A stretch of DNA of 7,906 bases. It comes from Bacillota bacterium (GTDB taxonomy: Bacteria; Bacillota_E; Symbiobacteriia; JAMDAP01). The position numbers and the translations under genes were made by a program. Positions 1 through 7,906 of this stretch are shown piece after piece. Numbering within the stretch: position 1 is the stretch's first letter; each line of letters opens with the position of its first letter. Location: contig JAMDAP010000177.1 in NCBI GenBank assembly GCA_023484675.1, positions 1 to 7,906 on the forward strand. The letters are read 5' to 3'. The notes below the pieces were generated by a model. It was given only the letters and a program-made list of their open reading frames with translations. It had not been told where the DNA came from and searched no databases.

Positions 1-365
1 GCACCGCCGGTGCCTCTGCCCAGATCATGGCCAAGGAAGGCGGGTTCGCCCTGCTGCGCCTCCCCTCCACCGAGCAGCGGCGCGTGCCCATTGGCTGCCG
101 CGCCACCATCGGCCAGGTGGGCAACGGCGGGCACGAGAACGTCACCATCGGCAAGGCCGGCCGCACTCGTTGGCTGGGCATCCGGCCGACGGTCCGCGGC
201 TCGGTTATGAACCCGGTGGACCACCCGCACGGTGGTGGCGAGGGCAAGGCCCCCATCGGTCGCAGCAGCCCCGTGACCCCCTGGGGCAAGCCCACCATGG
301 GGCATAAGACGCGCAAGCGGGAAAAGGCTTCTGACAAGTATATCGTCAAGCGCCGCTCCAAGTAG
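1..365 (+). CDS. rplB: 50S ribosomal protein L2, C-terminal part (5' truncated)
   Basis: L2 is a primary 23S rRNA-binding protein needed for subunit association and for the peptidyl-transferase centre. Only the last 120 codons are present; the reading frame begins at base 3 and the gene runs off the left edge. The fragment carries the family's most conserved region: GQVGN, then [38 protein letters not shown] (visible at about 180-263) and the basic end [18 protein letters not shown]. The His-rich [10 protein letters not shown] loop is the segment known to approach the peptidyl-transferase centre. The internal ATG at base 27 is not the start, because the reading before it (AGASAQI) already matches L2. 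It is followed after 48 nt by rpsS. There is nothing unusual in the visible part. Identification is essentially certain from the motif series. Confidence 0.97.
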
Positions 366-396
366 GCGCGCCCCCGCACGAATCCCTGCGGTCTGG

Positions 397-402
397 AAGG
401 AG
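397..402 (+). promoter_or_regulatory. Ribosome binding site that fixes the TTG start of rpsS
   Basis: AAGGAG lies 11 nt before TTG 414. A GTG at 402 is in frame and would give a longer S19, but it overlaps this SD and adds residues (MCEP) foreign to the family. The site therefore supports the TTG start. Confidence 0.75.
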
Positions 403-413
403 TGTGCGAACCG

Positions 414-698
414 TTGAGCCGTTCTCTGAAGAAGGGACCCTATATCGACGAAAGCCTTCTGAAGAAAGTCGTCGATCTGAACACCAGGAACGAAAAGAAG
501 GTCCTCAAGACCTGGGCGCGCGCGAGCACCATCAGCCCCGAGTTCGTCGGGCACACCGTCGCCGTGTATGATGGGCGTAAGCACGTACCTATCTACATCT
601 CGGAAGAGATGGTTGGCCACAAGCTGGGTGAGTTCGCCCCGACCCGCACCTTTAAGGGGCACAGCGGGCACACCGAGCGGTCAACCGCTCTGAAGTAG
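414..698 (+). CDS. rpsS: 30S ribosomal protein S19
   Basis: S19 sits in the head of the 30S subunit, bound to 16S rRNA with S13 near the A site and the inter-subunit bridge. The product is 94 residues, close to the usual 92-93. It begins [15 protein letters not shown], as S19 proteins do, and contains the signature [19 protein letters not shown] (about residues 44-62) and [18 protein letters not shown] (66-83). I chose TTG at 414 because the family starts with M-S-R-S-L-K-K-G-P and because the AAGGAG at 397-402 would be part of the coding sequence if the upstream GTG at 402 were used. It lies 48 nt after rplB and 11 nt before rplV. TTG is the only such start in the window. Identity is secure; the start is very likely. 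Confidence 0.96.
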
Positions 699-709
699 GG
701 GGAGGAAGC

Positions 710-1051
710 ATGGAAGCCAGAGCGTCAGCACGCCACGTGCGCATCGCCCCGCGAAAGGTCCGGATCGTCATCGATCAGATCAGGGGCAAGAGCATCAGCG
801 AGGCCCTCATCCTCCTCCAGTTCATCCCCAAGCGCGCCTCCAAGGTGATCGAGAAGGTGGTCAAGTCCGCCTCCGCCAACGCCGAGCACAACCTGGAGCT
901 TGATCGCGACGCGCTTTACGTGGCCGAGGCCTACGTGGACCAGGGGCCCACGCTCAAGCGGTTCCATCCGCGCCAGCGGGGCCAGGCCTTCCCCATCTTG
1001 AAGCGCACCAGCCACGTCACCGTCGTGGTGCGCGAAAAGGAGGACAAGTAA
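710..1051 (+). CDS. rplV: 50S ribosomal protein L22
   Basis: L22 binds all 23S rRNA domains and its extended beta-hairpin lines the nascent-peptide exit tunnel. The 113-residue product has the usual length. The N-terminal half shows [21 protein letters not shown] (7-27) and the helix SASANAEHN (53-61). The tunnel hairpin and C-terminal signature follow: [24 protein letters not shown] (79-102). The hairpin tip reads RQRGQAFPI where many bacteria have RA(K/R)GRA, a modest variation. The ATG start is preceded by GGAGG at 701-705. The stop codon shares one base with the start of rpsC (TAATG), so the two genes are probably translationally coupled. Confidence 0.97.
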
Positions 1052-1923
1052 TGGGCCAGAAAGTCCACCCCAAGGGCCTGCGCATTGGCATCATCAAAGA
1101 CTGGGACGCGCACTGGTACGCCCGGAAGCAGGAATTCGTGGACCTTCTGCACGAGGACGTCAAGCTGCGGGCCCGGCTGAAGAAGAAGCTATACAACGCC
1201 GGCCTGTCTCGCGTTGAGCTGGAACGCGCCACCGGCCGCGTCCGGGTCACCCTGCACGTCGCCAAGCCAGGCATGGTCATCGGCAAGGGCGGCGCCGGGG
1301 TAGAGGATCTTAGAAAAGACGTTGAGGCCTTCACTGGCAAGCAGGCCGCGGTCAACATCGTGGAAGTCAAGATGCCGGAGCTTGACGCCACCCTGGTGGC
1401 GGAGAACATCGCTCAGCAACTGGAGCGGCGCATTTCCTTCCGCCGCGCCATGAAGCAGTCGGTGGGTCGGGCCATGCGCCTCGGGGCCCGCGGCATCCGC
1501 GTAGTGGTTGCGGGCCGCCTGGGCGGAGCCGAGATTGCCCGCCGCGAGCGTGACTGGGAGGGCACCGTACCGCTGCACACCCTGCGGGCCGACATCGATT
1601 ACGGCACCGCTGAAGCCAATACCACCTACGGCAAGATCGGCGTTAAGGTCTGGATTTATCGGGGCGAGGTCATCCCCGGCCAGATGCCTGAGCGCCGCGA
1701 GCGCCCCGATCGGGGCGACCGCCGCGGCGATCGCCGTGGCCCCGGCCCCCGGCAGGGAGGCCAGGGTGACCGCCGTAATCCGCGTCCCGGCGACCGCCGT
1801 CCGACCCCGCCGGGTCCCCTGGGCGCGCCGCGGCCGAACCGTCCGGTTCCCGCCACGGCCCCCACGGCTCCTGTTGCCCCACAGACTGAGGCGTCCGATG
1901 AGGGCGCCGCAAAGGAGGCGTAA
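1051..1923 (+). CDS. rpsC: 30S ribosomal protein S3 with long Arg/Pro-rich C-terminal tail
   Basis: S3 lies at the mRNA entry channel of the 30S head and contributes to mRNA unwinding. Residues 1-209 are a full S3: start [13 protein letters not shown], type-II KH domain with the loop GMVIGKGG (74-81), then the C-terminal domain with [23 protein letters not shown] (142-164), TLRADIDYG (178-186) and [15 protein letters not shown] (192-206). The family normally ends within about 10-25 residues of this point. Here a further 81 residues follow, rich in Arg, Pro, Gly and Asp, with four GDRR copies (222-225, 226-229, 239-242, 247-250), then a Pro/Ala/Thr-rich, finally acidic end. The tail looks disordered and, in its first half, strongly basic, so RNA contact at the entry site is plausible but inferred. 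Actinobacterial S3 proteins also carry basic tails. AAGGAGG at 1037-1043 precedes the ATG. Confidence 0.97.
1702..1800 (+). repeat. GDRR-encoding repeat stretch with palindromes in rpsC tail
   Basis: Four in-frame copies of a Gly-Asp-Arg-Arg coding unit start at 1714, 1726, 1765 and 1789 and differ only at wobble positions. The stretch also holds two perfect GATC-centred palindromes, 16 bp at 1702-1717 and 12 bp at 1725-1736. The first could form a six-base-pair GC stem with a GATC loop in mRNA. They may simply follow from coding R-P-D-R-G and G-D-R-R with GC-rich codons. Confidence 0.7.
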
Positions 1924-1929
1924 GCACTC

Positions 1930-2364
1930 ATGTTGATGCCCAAGCGCGTCAAGCACCGTCGGGTTCAGAAGGGGCGCATGAGAGGCTTAGCCTACCGCGG
2001 CGGCGAGGTGACTTTTGGCGAGTACGGGCTGCAGTCGCTGGAACCGGCCTGGATCACCGATCGTCAGATTGAGGCTGCCCGTGTCGCCATGACCCGTTAT
2101 ATCAAGCGTGGCGGCAAGGTTTGGATCAAGATCTTTCCCGACAAGCCCATCACCAAGAAGCCTGCTGAGACCCGCATGGGTTCCGGCAAGGGCGCCCCCG
2201 AGTACTGGGTGGCTGTGGTGCGGCCGGGCCGGGTGCTGTTTGAGATCTCCGGCGTTCCTGAGGATGTGGCTCGGGAGGCCATGCGGCTGGCGGCGCACAA
2301 GCTGTCCGTCAAGACCAAGTTTGTAAGCCGCGAGGAAATGGGTGGTGAAGCGCATGAAAGCTAA
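1930..2364 (+). CDS. rplP: 50S ribosomal protein L16
   Basis: L16 binds 23S rRNA near the A-site tRNA elbow and helps organise the peptidyl-transferase region. The 144-residue product opens [17 protein letters not shown], the standard L16 start, and contains [14 protein letters not shown] (30-43), the basic [18 protein letters not shown] (56-73) and the most conserved block [20 protein letters not shown] (78-97). AAAGGAGG at 1911-1918, inside the end of rpsC, lies 11 nt before the ATG; the second ATG at 1936 would be too far away. The Arg in TRMG corresponds to the residue hydroxylated in some bacteria. The 3' end overlaps rpmC by 11 nt in another frame. Confidence 0.97.
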
Positions 2365-2551
2365 GGAAGCGCACGATCTTTCCGTCGATGAGCTCACCTC
2401 CAAGCTGGACTCGCTCAAGGACGAACTCTTCAAGCTCCGCTTCCAGCACGCCACCGGTCAGCTGGAGAACCCGGCGCGCATTCGCGACGTTCGGCGCTCC
2501 ATCGCCCGGGTGCAGACCGTTCTGCATGAGCGGCAGCTCAAGCAGGCCTAG
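2354..2551 (+). CDS. rpmC: 50S ribosomal protein L29
   Basis: L29 is a small helical-hairpin protein beside the exit tunnel mouth, next to L23, where the signal recognition particle and trigger factor dock. The 65-residue product matches the family length and reads like Firmicute L29: [50 protein letters not shown] (21-56), with two long amphipathic helices. ATG 2354 was chosen because L29 typically starts M-K-A-x-E. In-frame GTG codons at 2342 and 2345 are possible starts, the first with GAGGA at 2332-2336 close ahead of it, and would add up to four residues. The start lies inside rplP (11-nt overlap), so coupling is likely. Confidence 0.94.
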
Positions 2552-2572
2552 GGAAGGAGGCACACCAGGATA

Positions 2573-2827
2573 ATGGAACGCAACCTCCGCAAGACCCGCG
2601 TTGGCACCGTGGTCAGCGACAAGATGGAGAAGACGGTAATCGTGGCCGTCGAGACCCTCGTTGAGCATCCCCTGTACGGCAAGCGCCAGAAGCGCACTGA
2701 GCGGTACAAGGCCCATGACGAGGACGGCGCCGCCCACGAGGGAGACCGCGTCCGGATCATGGAAACCCGGCCGTTGTCCAGAGACAAGCGCTGGCGCGTG
2801 ATTGAAGTTATCGATAAGGCCAAGTAG
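2573..2827 (+). CDS. rpsQ: 30S ribosomal protein S17
   Basis: S17 is a primary 16S rRNA-binding protein of the 30S body with an OB fold and is needed early in assembly. The 84-residue product has the usual length. It contains the opening [23 protein letters not shown] (6-28), [19 protein letters not shown] (32-50) and the signature [20 protein letters not shown] (58-76). A strong GGAAGGAGG (2552-2560) directly follows the rpmC stop; its distance to the ATG is about 12 nt, a little long. It sits 21 nt after rpmC and 17 nt before rplN, the normal order of the L16-L29-S17-L14 block. Confidence 0.97.
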
Positions 2828-2844
2828 CAGGGAGGGAAGTCGCC

Positions 2845-3213
2845 ATGATCCAGGCTCAAACTCGCCTGGCGGTCGCCGACAACACCGGCGCCAAAGAACT
2901 GATGTGCATCCAGGTCATGGGTGGGAGCTTCCGCCGCTACGGCAACATCGGTGACATCATTACCGCTTCGGTGAAGGAAGCCAACCCCGGCGGTATCGTC
3001 AAGAAGGGCGATGTGGTGAAGGCTGTCATCGTGCGCACCAAGAAGGGGCTGCGCCGCGAGGACGGTTCCTACATCAAGTTTGATGAGAACGCGGCCGTGA
3101 TCTTGAAGGATGAGAAGGAGCCCAAGGGCACCCGCATCTTCGGACCCGTGGCCCGCGAACTCCGTGAGAAGGAATTTATGAAGATCATCTCCTTAGCGCC
3201 CGAGGTGCTCTAA
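2845..3213 (+). CDS. rplN: 50S ribosomal protein L14
   Basis: L14 is a beta-barrel protein on the subunit interface that forms bridge B8 with the 30S subunit and is the docking site of the silencing factor RsfS. The 122-residue length is standard. Visible motifs are the start [24 protein letters not shown] (1-24), [14 protein letters not shown] (33-46), [34 protein letters not shown] (53-86) and the signature [14 protein letters not shown] (95-108). GGAGGG (2831-2836) lies 8 nt ahead of the ATG. In many bacteria the spc operon proper begins at this gene, but no promoter can be recognised in the 17-nt gap before it. Confidence 0.97.
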
Positions 3214-3233
3214 GGGCAGAAAGGAGGTCCGCT

Positions 3234-3560
3234 GTGAGCCAGCCCAAGCTGCATGTGAAGAAGGGCGACATCGTGGTGGTGCTCGCCGGTAAGGATAAGG
3301 GCAAGCGCGGCAAGATCCTGCGGGTGGTTCCAGACAAGAACCGGGTCATGGTTGAGGGCGTGAACATGGTCAAGAAACACCAGAAGCCCAACCAGAAGAC
3401 CATGCAGGGCGGAATCATCGAGCAGGAAGCCCTTATTCACGCCTCCAACGTGATGCTCGTCTGCCCGCGCTGCAACACCCCCAGCCGCACCGGGCACGTG
3501 ATTTTGGAGAACGGCCAATCCGTCCGCAAGTGCATCCACTGCGGCGAGACGCTCGGTTAA
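3234..3560 (+). CDS. rplX: 50S ribosomal protein L24 with C4 zinc motif
   Basis: L24 is an early assembly protein that binds 23S rRNA domain I and lies near the tunnel exit. The 108-residue product has the KOW motif close to the start, [23 protein letters not shown] (9-31), and [13 protein letters not shown] (42-54). Its C-terminal part has paired cysteines, CPRC at 77-80 and CIHC at 100-103, a zinc-ribbon arrangement seen in many Clostridia and deep Firmicutes but lost in other lineages. That zinc is actually bound is inferred. The GTG start follows AAAGGAGGT (3220-3228) at 5 nt. It is the first of a run of genes using GTG. Confidence 0.97.
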
Positions 3561-3568
3561 AGGAGGTG
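3558..3568 (+). promoter_or_regulatory. rplX stop codon fused to rplE ribosome binding site
   Basis: The TAA of rplX runs directly into the SD sequence (TAAAGGAGGTG), 5 nt ahead of the rplE GTG. A terminating ribosome would uncover or occupy the site, which suggests coupled translation of L24 and L5. Confidence 0.8.
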
Positions 3569-3573
3569 CGATC

Positions 3574-4116
3574 GTGGCGCGAGCCAAGGAACGGTTTGCA
3601 AACGAAGTCGCTCCTGCTATGCAGAAGCGCTTTGGCTACAAGAACGTGATGCAGATTCCCAGACTGGAGAAGATCGTCGTCAACATGGGTGTTGGCGACA
3701 ACATTCAGAATGCCAAGGCGATGGATGCGGCGGTGGCTGACCTGACGACCATCACCGGACAGAAGCCGGTGGTGACCAAGGCCAAGAAATCCATCGCCAA
3801 CTTCAAGGTCCGTGCGGGCATGAGCATCGGCACGAAGGTCACGCTGCGCGGCGAGCGCATGTATGACTTCTTTGACCGGCTGGTGAACGTGGCGCTCCCC
3901 CGGGTGCGCGACTTTCGCGGCATCTCGCCCAAGTCCTTCGACGGCCGCGGCAACTATGCCCTGGGCCTCAAGGAGCAGCTGATTTTCCCCGAAATCGACT
4001 ACGACAAGGTCGAAAAGGTCCGTGGCATGGACGTGATCATCGTCACCTCCGCCAAGACCGACGAAGAAGCCAAGGAACTGCTCAAGCTGATGGGCATGCC
4101 CTTCAAGGAAGCTTAA
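3574..4116 (+). CDS. rplE: 50S ribosomal protein L5
   Basis: L5 binds 5S rRNA with L18 in the central protuberance and contacts P-site tRNA through a flexible loop. The 180-residue product matches the family length of 179-180. It has the N-terminal helix [27 protein letters not shown] (16-42), then [24 protein letters not shown] (60-83), [20 protein letters not shown] (86-105), and the signature [29 protein letters not shown] (107-135) followed by FPEIDYDKV. The GTG start is set by AAAGGAGGTG at 3559-3568. It is followed after 13 nt by the S14 gene. In E. coli the S8 protein represses this operon at the start of rplE; I could not see such an S8 target here. Confidence 0.97.
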
Positions 4117-4122
4117 AGGAGG
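4114..4122 (+). promoter_or_regulatory. rplE stop codon fused to rpsN ribosome binding site
   Basis: TAAAGGAGG joins the rplE stop and the SD for the S14 gene, 7 nt before its GTG start. This is the second use of the same stop/SD fusion in the cluster. Confidence 0.8.
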
Positions 4123-4129
4123 ACGCGAC

Positions 4130-4315
4130 GTGGCGAAAACGGCGCTTATCAACAAGGCCAATGCCGCCCCGAAATTTTCGGTTCGCCGGTACCACCGTTG
4201 CAAGATCTGCGGGCGTCCCCACGCCTACATGCGCAAGTTCGGCATGTGCCGCATCTGCTTCCGGGAGCGGGCCCATCTGGGCGAAATTCCGGGGGTTACG
4301 AAGGCCAGCTGGTAA
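4130..4315 (+). CDS. rpsZ: 30S ribosomal protein S14, short zinc-binding type
   Basis: S14 is a late-assembling protein of the 30S head near S10 and S19. At 61 residues this is the short, C+ type (also written rpsN type Z). It starts [24 protein letters not shown] and carries four cysteines as CKIC (24-27) and CRIC (40-43), spaced as in the zinc-ribbon S14 of Firmicutes and Thermus. The core [25 protein letters not shown] ends the protein, as in relatives. The longer, zinc-free S14 used by many proteobacteria is about 100 residues. Its position between rplE and rpsH is the standard one. Start GTG is supported by the SD at 4115-4122. Confidence 0.97.
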
Positions 4316-4345
4316 ACGGCGTTCCTTTGGGAAGGAGGTAGCCGA

Positions 4346-4744
4346 GTGATTGTATCCGATTCGATCGCCGATCTTCTCACCCGGATTCGCAATGCCCATG
4401 CGGCCAATCACGACCGTGTGGAGATTCCCGGGTCTAAGATGAAGAAGGCCATCGTGCAGATTTTGAAGGATGAGGGGTACGTCCGGGATTACGAATGGGT
4501 GGACAACAGCCATCAGGGTGTCATCCGGGTGTATCTGAAGTACGGACCAGGCAAGAGCAAGGTCATTACCGGCCTCAAGCGCATCAGCAAACCAGGCCTC
4601 CGCGTCTACGCCAGGAAAGACGAGATTCCGAAGGTGCTGGGCGGTTTGGGGGTTGCCGTGCTGTCTACCAGCAAGGGCATCCTCACCGACAAGCAGGCGC
4701 GGGCCGAAGGTCTCGGTGGCGAGGTTCTCTGCTACGTTTGGTAG
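4346..4744 (+). CDS. rpsH: 30S ribosomal protein S8
   Basis: S8 is a primary 16S rRNA-binding protein of the central domain; in E. coli it also represses the spc operon. The 132-residue product has the expected length. It begins with the N-terminal signature [42 protein letters not shown] (5-46) and ends with the RNA-binding block [21 protein letters not shown] (99-119) and GGEVLCYVW, the usual C-terminus. AAGGAGGT (4332-4339) lies 6 nt before the GTG. The gaps are 30 nt upstream and 36 nt to the rplF start downstream, neither with a convincing hairpin. No unusual features were seen. Confidence 0.97.
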
Positions 4745-4780
4745 ACGGCCTGCCAGGTGCAACGTGAGGGAGGTGTCCAT

Positions 4781-5320
4781 GTGTCGCGAGTAGGTAAGCA
4801 GCCCATCGCGCTTCCGGCAGGCGTCGAGGTCAAGCTCAATGGGAACCGCGTTTCCGTCACGGGCCCCAAAGGCGAGCTTAGCCGGGAAATCAGCAGCGAT
4901 ATGATCGTCAAGATTGAAGACAACACGGTTACGGTCAGCCGTCCCAGTGAGGAACGGCAGCACCGGGCCTTGCACGGCCTCACCCGCACCCTCATCGCCA
5001 ATATGGTGGAGGGCGTGACGAAGGGCTACCAGAAGAACCTGGAGCTGGTGGGAACGGGCTACCGGGCTGCCAAGTCGGGCAGGAAGCTGGTGCTCACCGT
5101 CGGCTTCTCCCATCCGGTGGAAATTGATCCACCGGCCGGCATCGACATCGAGGTGCCCAATCCGGCAGCCGTTGTGGTCAAGGGCATTGACAAGGAAGCG
5201 GTTGGCGCTTTGACGGCCAACATCCGGGACGTGCGGCCGCCGGAGCCGTACCTTGGCAAGGGCATCCGTTACGCCGGCGAGCGGGTCCGCCGCAAGGTCG
5301 GCAAGACCGGCAAGAAGTAG
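4781..5320 (+). CDS. rplF: 50S ribosomal protein L6
   Basis: L6 binds 23S rRNA helix 97 near the GTPase-associated region and is needed late in 50S assembly. The product is 179 residues with two similar domains. It starts [17 protein letters not shown] and carries [12 protein letters not shown] (24-35), the inter-domain [22 protein letters not shown] (62-83), LVGTGYRAA (89-97) and the C-terminal signature [28 protein letters not shown] (152-179). A longer in-frame opening from GTG 4757 exists, but it would translate through the SD (GGAGGTG, 4769-4775), and family members start with M-S-R-(I/V)-G-K. GTG 4781 is therefore preferred. It is followed by 29 nt and then rplR. Confidence 0.97.
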
Positions 5321-5349
5321 TCGCACCCAGGCGAAGGGAGTGAAATTCC

Positions 5350-5718
5350 GTGCTGACCAAGCAGGATAGGAACGAGGCCCGCCAGGTGCGCCACGATCGC
5401 GTGCGTCGGAAGGTCATCGGCACGACGGCTCGGCCTCGGCTGAACGTCTTCCGCAGCAACGGCCACATCTACGCCCAGATTATCGTAGATGAGACCGGCA
5501 ACACACTGGTTGCGGCCAGCTCTCTCGACCCTGAACTGAAGGCCCAGTTGAAGAGCGGCGGCAACGCCGAGGCGGCCAAGGCGGTGGGTACGGCCATCGC
5601 CAAGCGCGCCCTGGAGAAGGGCGTGGGGCAGGTCGTCTTCGACCGCGGCGGCTACCTCTACCATGGCCGCATCGCGGCCCTGGCCGAAGCCGCCCGTGAA
5701 GCTGGGCTGAAGTTTTAG
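5350..5718 (+). CDS. rplR: 50S ribosomal protein L18
   Basis: L18 carries 5S rRNA into the central protuberance together with L5. The 122-residue product has the usual basic N-terminal segment ([20 protein letters not shown]), then [35 protein letters not shown] (24-58), and the conserved C-terminal block [28 protein letters not shown] (95-122). AAGGGAG (5334-5340) lies 9 nt before the GTG start. The stop TAG is followed at once by the SD of rpsE, so L18 and S5 are probably translated in a coupled way. No irregularity was seen. Confidence 0.97.
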
Positions 5719-5732
5719 GAAGGAGGGAGACC

Positions 5733-6239
5733 GTGGCGCGTTTTGACGCAAACAGGAATCAGGATGAGCTAAAGGAGAAGGTTGTCTCCATCAACCGCGT
5801 GGCCAAGACCGTAAAGGGCGGCCGCCGGATGAGCTTCTCCGCTTTGGTGGTAGTCGGGGACGGTGATGGCAAGGTCGGCGCCGGCAGCGGCAAGGCCACT
5901 GAGATTCCCGAGGCCATCCGCAAGGGGATCGAAGACGCCAAGAAGAACATGATCACCATACCCCGCGTTGGTACTACAATTCCCCACGTATCCCTCGGGC
6001 ACTTCGGCGCCGGACAGGTGCAGATCGGAAGAGCGTCGTAAGGCACCGGCGTGATCGCCGGCGGCGCGGTCCGCGCCGTCCTGGAGCTGGCCGGCATTCG
6101 GGACGTGCTGACCAAGTCCATCGGCAGCAACAACGCCAACAACCAGGTCCACGCCACCCTGGCGGGTCTCCAGCAGCTGAAGAGCGCTGAGGACGTCGCC
6201 CGCCTGCGGGGCAAGACCGTTGAACAGATTCAGGGTTAG
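5733..6239 (+). CDS. rpsE: 30S ribosomal protein S5, interrupted by an in-frame stop (probable assembly error)
   Basis: S5 acts at the mRNA entry channel and in decoding fidelity. The locus spans 168 sense-frame codons, the normal S5 length, but codon 103 is TAA (6039-6041). The N-terminal piece (5733-6041) has the S5 RNA-binding domain: [27 protein letters not shown] (17-43), [28 protein letters not shown] (46-73), GTTIPH...GHFGAGQV. The C-terminal piece, in the same frame, resumes [31 protein letters not shown] and ends [11 protein letters not shown]. Between them the expected L-L-(K/R)-P-A-S-E is replaced by Q-I-G-R-A-S-stop, encoded by an exact TruSeq adapter 18-mer. S5 is normally essential and all else is intact, so the break is almost certainly not genuine. 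An automatic caller would report two fragments, the second from GTG 6051. The SD AAGGAGGG is at 5720-5727. Confidence 0.95.
5909..5928 (+). repeat. Inverted-repeat arm in rpsE, matching the window end
   Basis: These 20 nt, coding E-A-I-R-K-G in S5 where the family is well conserved, are the exact reverse complement of 7887-7906. This copy fits its gene; the other copy does not. It is therefore the probable source of the chimeric end of the window. Confidence 0.9.
6022..6039 (+). other. Illumina TruSeq adapter sequence inside rpsE
   Basis: AGATCGGAAGAGCGTCGT is the first 18 nt of the TruSeq adapter read at the end of short inserts (the strand that continues GTAGGG). Genomic S5 coding resumes right after it. 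The 18-mer lies in the middle of a conserved S5 motif and its last base begins the premature TAA. I read it as adapter carried into the consensus, not as genomic DNA. Confidence 0.93.
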
Positions 6240-6246
6240 GGGGTGG
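6238..6246 (+). promoter_or_regulatory. Ribosome binding site deciding the rpmD start
   Basis: AGGGGGTGG overlaps the rpsE stop and lies 5 nt before GTG 6252. The in-frame GTG at 6243 falls inside this G-rich site, so 6252 is the better start for L30. Confidence 0.6.
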
Positions 6247-6251
6247 CTAGC

Positions 6252-6440
6252 GTGGCAGACACCAAAAAGGTTCAGGTGAAGCTGGTCAAGAGCTTTATTG
6301 CGCGGCCCCCCAAGCAGGAACTGATCGCTAACGCCCTCGGCCTGCGCCGAATTGGCGATGTGGCGGTGCACGCGGACACGCCCCAGATTCGCGGCATGAT
6401 CGATAAGATCAGCCACCTCCTGGAGGTTACGGAAGCATGA
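6252..6440 (+). CDS. rpmD: 50S ribosomal protein L30
   Basis: L30 is a small 50S protein that binds 23S rRNA and is absent from some bacterial lineages. With the GTG at 6252 the product is 62 residues, near the usual 58-62. It reads [54 protein letters not shown], which contains the family pattern (VKS-I-RP-KQ, ALGLR+I, DTP-IRGMI-K--HL). Starting at GTG 6243 would add three residues and put the start in the likely SD. The stop codon overlaps the rplO start by four bases (ATGA), a classical coupling arrangement. It follows rpsE by 12 nt. Confidence 0.94.
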
Positions 6441-6877
6441 AACTGCACGAACTAGGCCCCGCCCCCGGCTCACGCCGCCCTGGCCGCCGAGTCGGCCGCG
6501 GCATTGGCTCCGGCCTGGGCAAGACTTCGGGCAAGGGCCACAAGGGCCAAAACGCCCGCTCCGGCGGTGGCGTGCGCCCGGGCTTTGAAGGCGGCCAGAT
6601 GCCTTTGTTCCGCCGCTTGCCCAAGCGCGGCTTTACCAACATTTTTCGGAAGGAATACGCCACGGTGAACCTGGAGGCGCTCAACCGCTTCGAGGACGGC
6701 ACCGAAGTGACCCCCGAACTGCTCTACGGCACCCGGCTTCTGAAGCGGGCCAAGGGCGGGGTCAAGATTCTTGGCGGAGGCGAGCTGACCAAGAAGCTGA
6801 CGGTCCGCGCCCAGGCCTTCACCCAGTCGGCACGGGAGAAGATCGAGGCGGCCGGCGGCAGAGCTGAGGTGATTTAG
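6437..6877 (+). CDS. rplO: 50S ribosomal protein L15
   Basis: L15 is a late 50S assembly protein with a long basic N-terminal extension that threads into 23S rRNA. The 146-residue product has the standard length. The N-terminus is [66 protein letters not shown] (1-66), which is the whole L15 Gly/Arg/Lys-rich signature. The globular domain follows, with [13 protein letters not shown] and [38 protein letters not shown] at 6422-6426 lies 10 nt before the ATG. It overlaps rpmD by four bases and abuts secY without a gap. Confidence 0.97.
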
Positions 6878-7906
6878 GTGCTGGAAACCCTCAGGGGTGC
6901 CTTCCGCATCCCCGACCTGCGTCGCCGGATCCTCTTCACCCTTGGCATGCTGATCGTATTTCGGCTCGGGGCCCACGTTCCGGTCCCCGGCGTCAACCGT
7001 GTGGAGATCGCCAAGCTGATCAGCAGCGGCACGCTTTTTGGTTTCATCGACCTGATCTCCGGCGGAGCCCTGAAGAACTTCACCGTATTTGCCATGGGCA
7101 TCATGCCCTACATCAACGCGTCCATCATCTTGCAACTGCTGACCATCGTCTTCCCTGCCCTGGAGAAATTGGCCAAGGAAGGCGAGGAGGGCCGTCGCAA
7201 GATCACCCAGTACACCCGCTACGGCACCGTGGTGCTGGCCCTGGTCCAGGCCCTCGGCACGTCCGTCGGTCTTCAGGCTTACATCTATAACTACAGCATC
7301 TGGAGCGTGCTGCTGATCGCCCTGACGCTGACCGCCGGCACCGTCTTTCTGATGTGGCTGGGCGAAGCGATCACTGACAAGGGCATCGGCAACGGCATAT
7401 CCCTGCTGATCTTCTTCGGTATTGTGGCCCGCTATCCGGGTTACCTGGGTGAGGCTTACAAGTACCTGACCGCCGGCACCCTGTCGTTCCTCGTCTTCCT
7501 GGTCGTGGCGATGATCGCCATCGCCGTGGTGGCGATGGTGGTGCTGATCACCGAGGGCGAGCGCCGGCTGCCGGTCCAGTATGCCAAGCGCGTTGTGGGC
7601 CGCAAGGTCTACGGCGGCCAGAGCACCCACCTGCCGATCAAGGTGAACCAGGCCGGCGTCATGCCGATCATCTTCGCCGCGTCCATTCTGGCCATGCCGG
7701 CCACGATTGCGCAGTTCAACCCGAACACCGGCTGGGCCCAATTCCTCAACCGGTACTTCGGTTTCTCGTCGCTGTTCTATCTGTTCGCCTATCCGCTCCT
7801 GATCCTGTTCTTCACCTATTTCTACACAGCCATCACCTACAACCCGCAGGAGATCTCCGACAACATCAAGAAGTATGGCGGCTTTGTCCCCTTGCGGATG
7901 GCCTCG
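6878..7906 (+). CDS. secY: Preprotein translocase subunit SecY (3' truncated; last residues chimeric)
   Basis: SecY is the channel of the Sec translocon in the cytoplasmic membrane and works with SecE, SecG, SecA and ribosomes. 343 of about 420 codons are visible. The opening is LETLRGAFRIPDLRRRILFTLGMLIVFRLGAHVPVPGV, with TM1 near 18-35. FGFIDLISGGALKNFTVFAMGIMPYINASIILQLL (54-88) holds the plug region and signature 1; GEAITDKGIGNGISLLIFFGIV (162-183) is signature 2; LITEGERRLPVQYAKR (223-238) is the large cytoplasmic loop that contacts SecA or the ribosome; KVNQAGVMPIIFA follows. GTG 6878 starts immediately after the rplO stop, with GAGGTGA at 6866-6872 as SD. After KKYGGFVP (331-338) the family reads G-I-R-P-G, but here L-R-M-A-S. 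Those five codons belong to an inverted copy of rpsE sequence, so genuine SecY ends at about 7891. Confidence 0.97.
   Translation, partial: MLETLRGAFRIPDLRRRILFTLGMLIVFRLGAHVPVPGVNRVEIAKLISSGTLFGFIDLISGGALKNFTVFAMGIMPYINASIILQLLTIVFPALEKLAKEGEEGRRKITQYTRYGTVVLALVQALGTSVGLQAYIYNYSIWSVLLIALTLTAGTVFLMWLGEAITDKGIGNGISLLIFFGIVARYPGYLGEAYKYLTAGTLSFLVFLVVAMIAIAVVAMVVLITEGERRLPVQYAKRVVGRKVYGGQSTHLPIKVNQAGVMPIIFAASILAMPATIAQFNPNTGWAQFLNRYFGFSSLFYLFAYPLLILFFTYFYTAITYNPQEISDNIKKYGGFVPLRMAS
7887..7906 (-). repeat. Inverted copy of rpsE at the window end (chimeric junction)
   Basis: The final 20 nt are the exact reverse complement of 5909-5928. About five bases at the inner edge (7887-7891, TCCCC) also fit SecY and so form microhomology at the junction. 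From 7892 on the translation departs from a nearly invariant SecY motif. This is the pattern of an inverted amplification chimera or a misassembled contig end. Confidence 0.88.

Follow-up and report, generated by a model that had tools for sequence, protein, structure and literature searches.

The end of a contig may be an assembly-graph overlap, in which an exact short word is shared with another place, to the last base. Inverted chimeras are a described product of multiple displacement amplification (MDA). Lasken and Stockwell (2007) found that 406 of 475 MDA chimeras were inverted; in 337 of the 406 the joined segments were less than 10 kb apart, and complementarity at the joins reached up to 21 nt (PMC1855051). 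Inverted chimeras have also been reported from ligation-based nanopore library preparation, and MDA is not the cause named in the abstract describing them (PMC13141652).

The sequence analysed here, referred to as the window, is the whole stretch of 7,906 nucleotides from contig JAMDAP010000177.1 of a Bacillota bacterium. Comparison with relatives indicates that its end is very probably an artefactual inverted chimera (probability about 0.94), in which secY passes into antisense rpsE. The window also contains part of an Illumina adapter inside rpsE. The sequence-only reading of this DNA was right about the chimera and overlooked the adapter, which lies at 6022-6039.

Results

The window carries part of a ribosomal protein operon. 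The open reading frames give 18 genes, all on the plus strand: rplB (partial)-rpsS-rplV-rpsC-rplP-rpmC-rpsQ-rplN-rplX-rplE-rpsZ-rpsH-rplF-rplR-rpsE-rpmD-rplO-secY (partial). Their order is the one usual for S10/spc. Names other than rpsE and secY were assigned from reading of the translations. Residues 15-338 of the window SecY match positions 1-337 of the 414 in profile TIGR00967, and two pieces of rpsE match positions 2-92 and 95-155 of the 156 in TIGR01021. The following features are discussed below.

5733..6239, plus strand: rpsE (S5), interrupted by the adapter; TIGR01021 is matched on either side of it
5909..5928, plus strand: source segment of the inverted copy, inside rpsE; exact inverted match
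6022..6039, plus strand: copy of the Illumina read-2 adapter, AGATCGGAAGAGCGTCGT, in place of rpsE sequence, with the length unchanged; exact 18-nt match
6878..7891, plus strand: genuine part of secY, truncated at the chimeric join; TIGR00967 match and 98-99% identity to the SecY protein P0001
7887..7891, no strand: junction microhomology TCCCC; fits both antisense rpsE and the secY of genome G060
7892..7906, minus strand: antisense rpsE rather than genuine secY; reverse complement of 5909-5923, with 3/15 identities to G060

The window ends in an exact inverted copy of a segment of rpsE. Compared letter by letter, 7887-7906 is the perfect reverse complement of 5909-5928 (20 nt, 100% complementary), and among the five inverted pairs reported in the window it is the only perfect one. 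The outward end of the match is 7906, the final base, while at the inward end G at 7886 stands opposite T at 5929, making the match exactly 20 nt long. The sequence-only reading had described such a copy running to the last base, and the comparison bears this out. The second segment is inverted relative to the first, 1,958 nt separate the arms, which is within the 10 kb of most inverted MDA chimeras, and the TCCCC at 7887-7891 falls in the range of 2-21 nt of complementarity at the join. At the left end of the window the inverted match is only 8 nt, and nothing there suggests chimeras elsewhere in the window.

A match of this length is not expected by chance. With uniform base composition, about 1.4e-8 matches would be expected for the 20-mer; leaving aside the shared TCCCC, the figure for the remaining 15 bases is about 1.5e-5. 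When 4,880 interior end points (3000-7879) were tested against the sequence preceding them, none had an inverted match of 15 nt or more, and the longest was 13. Likewise, inverted matches of at least 14 nt were found at none of 55 real contig ends in the fetched bacterial loci, of which 54 were picked by hand and one (L002) was added later. The two null comparisons rule out chance similarity, and they uphold the earlier judgement that a 20-nt inverted match by chance was very unlikely.

A related genome shows where the genuine secY stops. The class of G001 was searched in 154 genomes, 150 of which gave a match, and the best DNA relative found was G060, with 85% identity over 2,152 bases in the genome search. 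G060 aligns with the window at 85.8% identity, starting at 3 and ending at 7891; over 7892-7906 only 3 of 15 bases are identical to the aligned G060 sequence, against 85.9% over 3-7891. Past 7891, G060 continues with GGCTTCCGGCCCGG, which encodes GFRPG. The SecY protein P0001 is 98% identical to the window SecY in a multiple alignment and 99% in the search; at the join it reads GGFVPGFRPGRPTTEYL, and its continuation there is GFRPGRPTTEYL. Both the G060 and the P0001 SecY run GGF(V/I)P-GFRPGRPT where the window SecY has LRMAS.

Other relatives of SecY agree with this pattern. The sequence-only reading had proposed comparing secY with its relatives, and among the best 120 of 8,000 scored proteins GxRPG follows GGF(V/I)P in 117, the other three not being parsed by the pattern, while LRMAS is found in none of the 120. 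GxRPG is expected of a genuine SecY C-terminal region, and the window has LRMAS in its place. The motif had been noted as lost at the join, which is correct, but the expected form had been given as GIRPG and the nearest relatives read GFRPG. In the viral contigs scanned for relatives of SecY, 20 stretches fit a pattern and none was a relative. Since G060 is collinear up to 7891 and the relatives have GxRPG and never LRMAS, the last 15 bases (7892-7906) are antisense rpsE joined to secY through TCCCC. The sequences thus support an inverted chimeric join inside secY, with the break at 7891. The earlier placement of the end of true SecY at about 7891 is borne out by the G060 alignment and the protein relatives, and the view that TCCCC fits both sources by that alignment and the antisense rpsE match.

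Natural explanations of the window end have very little probability. A real SecY variant is ruled out: none of the listed relatives has LRMAS, and G060 is normal. If the tail were genuine but divergent, its resemblance to rpsE would be chance similarity; no support was found for this reading, which is extremely improbable given the absence of matches of 15 nt or more at the interior points and of LRMAS among the listed relatives. A genuine rearrangement of the organism's S10/spc operon, by inversion or inverted duplication, is compatible with the sequence as written. However, it would cost SecY its conserved loop and C-terminus, the SecY of P0001 is normal, and G060 is collinear over the whole window; it is rejected on this collinearity and is scarcely credible. 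Equally hard to credit is a minority of cells with a true inverted rearrangement of secY to antisense rpsE that was caught by the assembly.

An Illumina adapter interrupts rpsE. Positions 6022-6039 are 18 exact bases of the read-2 adapter, identified from the adapter sequence given in PMC10038132. This is well beyond chance, the uniform-base expectation being 2.3e-7. The adapter creates an in-frame TAA at 6039-6041. The S5 protein P0121, which has one difference from the window in the 96 residues before the adapter, reads GQV-LLKPASE-GTG, while the window reads GQV-QIGRAS-stop and then returns in frame with GTGVIAGG. Among 120 listed S5 relatives, the segment at this site is 7 residues long in all 115 that were parsed; five were not parsed.

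The adapter replaces rpsE sequence in register. The site has 6/18 identities to G060 and the same net length. When gaps cost less, the aligner introduces two 2-nt gaps inside the adapter that compensate each other; when they cost more, there are no gaps between 5718 and 6245, and under both settings the net length is unchanged. Even fewer than 6 identities to G060 are seen for some 18-nt segments in the variable tail of rpsC. Leaving out 1690-1930 and the bases from 7892 on, the 18-nt segments having at most 8 identities begin at 6012-6027, apart from one with 8 at 7518. The C-terminal tail of rpsC (1725-1887) has many Arg, Gly and Pro residues, and its length varies against G060. Of 19 gene pieces read in the corresponding frames of G060, 17 have no stops, rpmD has two, and rplF was not computed. 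A 1-nt gap at 6245, immediately past the ORF start used, may account for the rpmD stops.

Adapter sequence in other records is usually close to an end. The 18-mer was found in at least 120 stretches of public viral contigs (L081-L200). Among the 126 matches listed in these, 118 are no more than 100 nt from one end of the examined stretch, suggesting that a copy lying internally and in register is less common. In the window the copy is 1,867 nt from the end. The 13-base adapter core was found in none of 80 bacterial loci (L001-L080).

Discussion

The chimeric end may have formed by annealing and extension of a displaced strand. A displaced secY strand with TCCCC at its 3' end would have annealed to GGGGA at 5924-5928 of a same-strand copy of rpsE. 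Extended along rpsE, it would then yield a read that starts in secY and continues in antisense rpsE. This chimeric path could have been taken by the assembler, which would have halted on reaching bases it had used before; that the path was chosen suggests thin coverage of the true continuation of secY. Beyond the shared TCCCC the inverted copy has only 15 bases. The 20-nt match equals k-1 of a k=21 assembly graph, but this is only suggestive.

The step at which the chimera formed may have been amplification or library preparation. Whole-genome amplification such as MDA would be the most natural place for a 2-kb fold-back, and single-cell or MDA amplification is a possible cause. Formation during MDA of a single cell or of very little DNA, the origin favoured in the sequence-only reading, is given slightly less than even odds. 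The inverted orientation, the 1,958-nt distance and the 5-nt homology agree with the published pattern, and in that study two or more complementary bases stood at the join in 93.5% of the inverted chimeras spanning less than 10 kb (PMC1855051). A fold-back of 2 kb is also hard to form inside a fragment of Illumina size. On the other hand, the argument is drawn from one junction, and inverted chimeras have been reported from another preparation too (PMC13141652). The chimera may instead have formed without MDA in an ordinary metagenome library, during library construction (ligation, end repair, PCR) or read merging. This origin is also tentative, with a chance a little under one half. The adapter remnant shows that the Illumina library was incompletely trimmed, and inverted chimeras have been described from ligation-based preparation (PMC13141652). 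However, a 2-kb spacing exceeds the usual Illumina fragment, so an intramolecular fold-back would have to precede fragmentation.

The adapter is evidence, independent of the chimera, that uncleaned reads shaped the window sequence. It points to incompletely trimmed Illumina reads entering the consensus. Lying in register and leaving the length unchanged, it resembles an error of consensus or overlap more than a plain insertion. In rpsE, 94 nt separate the adapter (6022) from the source of the inverted copy (5928), either by coincidence or through a common cause; a mechanism physically linking the adapter and the chimeric join was considered, and none was found.

Neither rpsE nor secY of this record is reliable, and both are unsuitable for use as they stand. 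The chimeric end and the adapter are ordinary artefacts with no biological novelty. Their value is as a data-quality flag, with two independent artefacts in conserved marker genes of one contig. Such artefacts in rpsE and secY would mislead gene calls, marker-gene completeness estimates and concatenated ribosomal-protein trees.

The artefacts of the window resemble known ones in some respects and differ in others. Like adapter read-through left in assemblies, the copy in rpsE has the exact 18 letters of the adapter; unlike it, the copy is internal, genomic sequence resumes after it, and the length is unchanged. As at an assembly-graph overlap, an exact short word repeated elsewhere reaches the last base of the window. 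The window end is similar to the inverted chimeras that Lasken and Stockwell (2007, PMC1855051) described from MDA in being inverted, in joining segments less than 10 kb apart and in having short homology at the join, but it differs in having a single junction, located at its end, with a second segment of only 15 bases.
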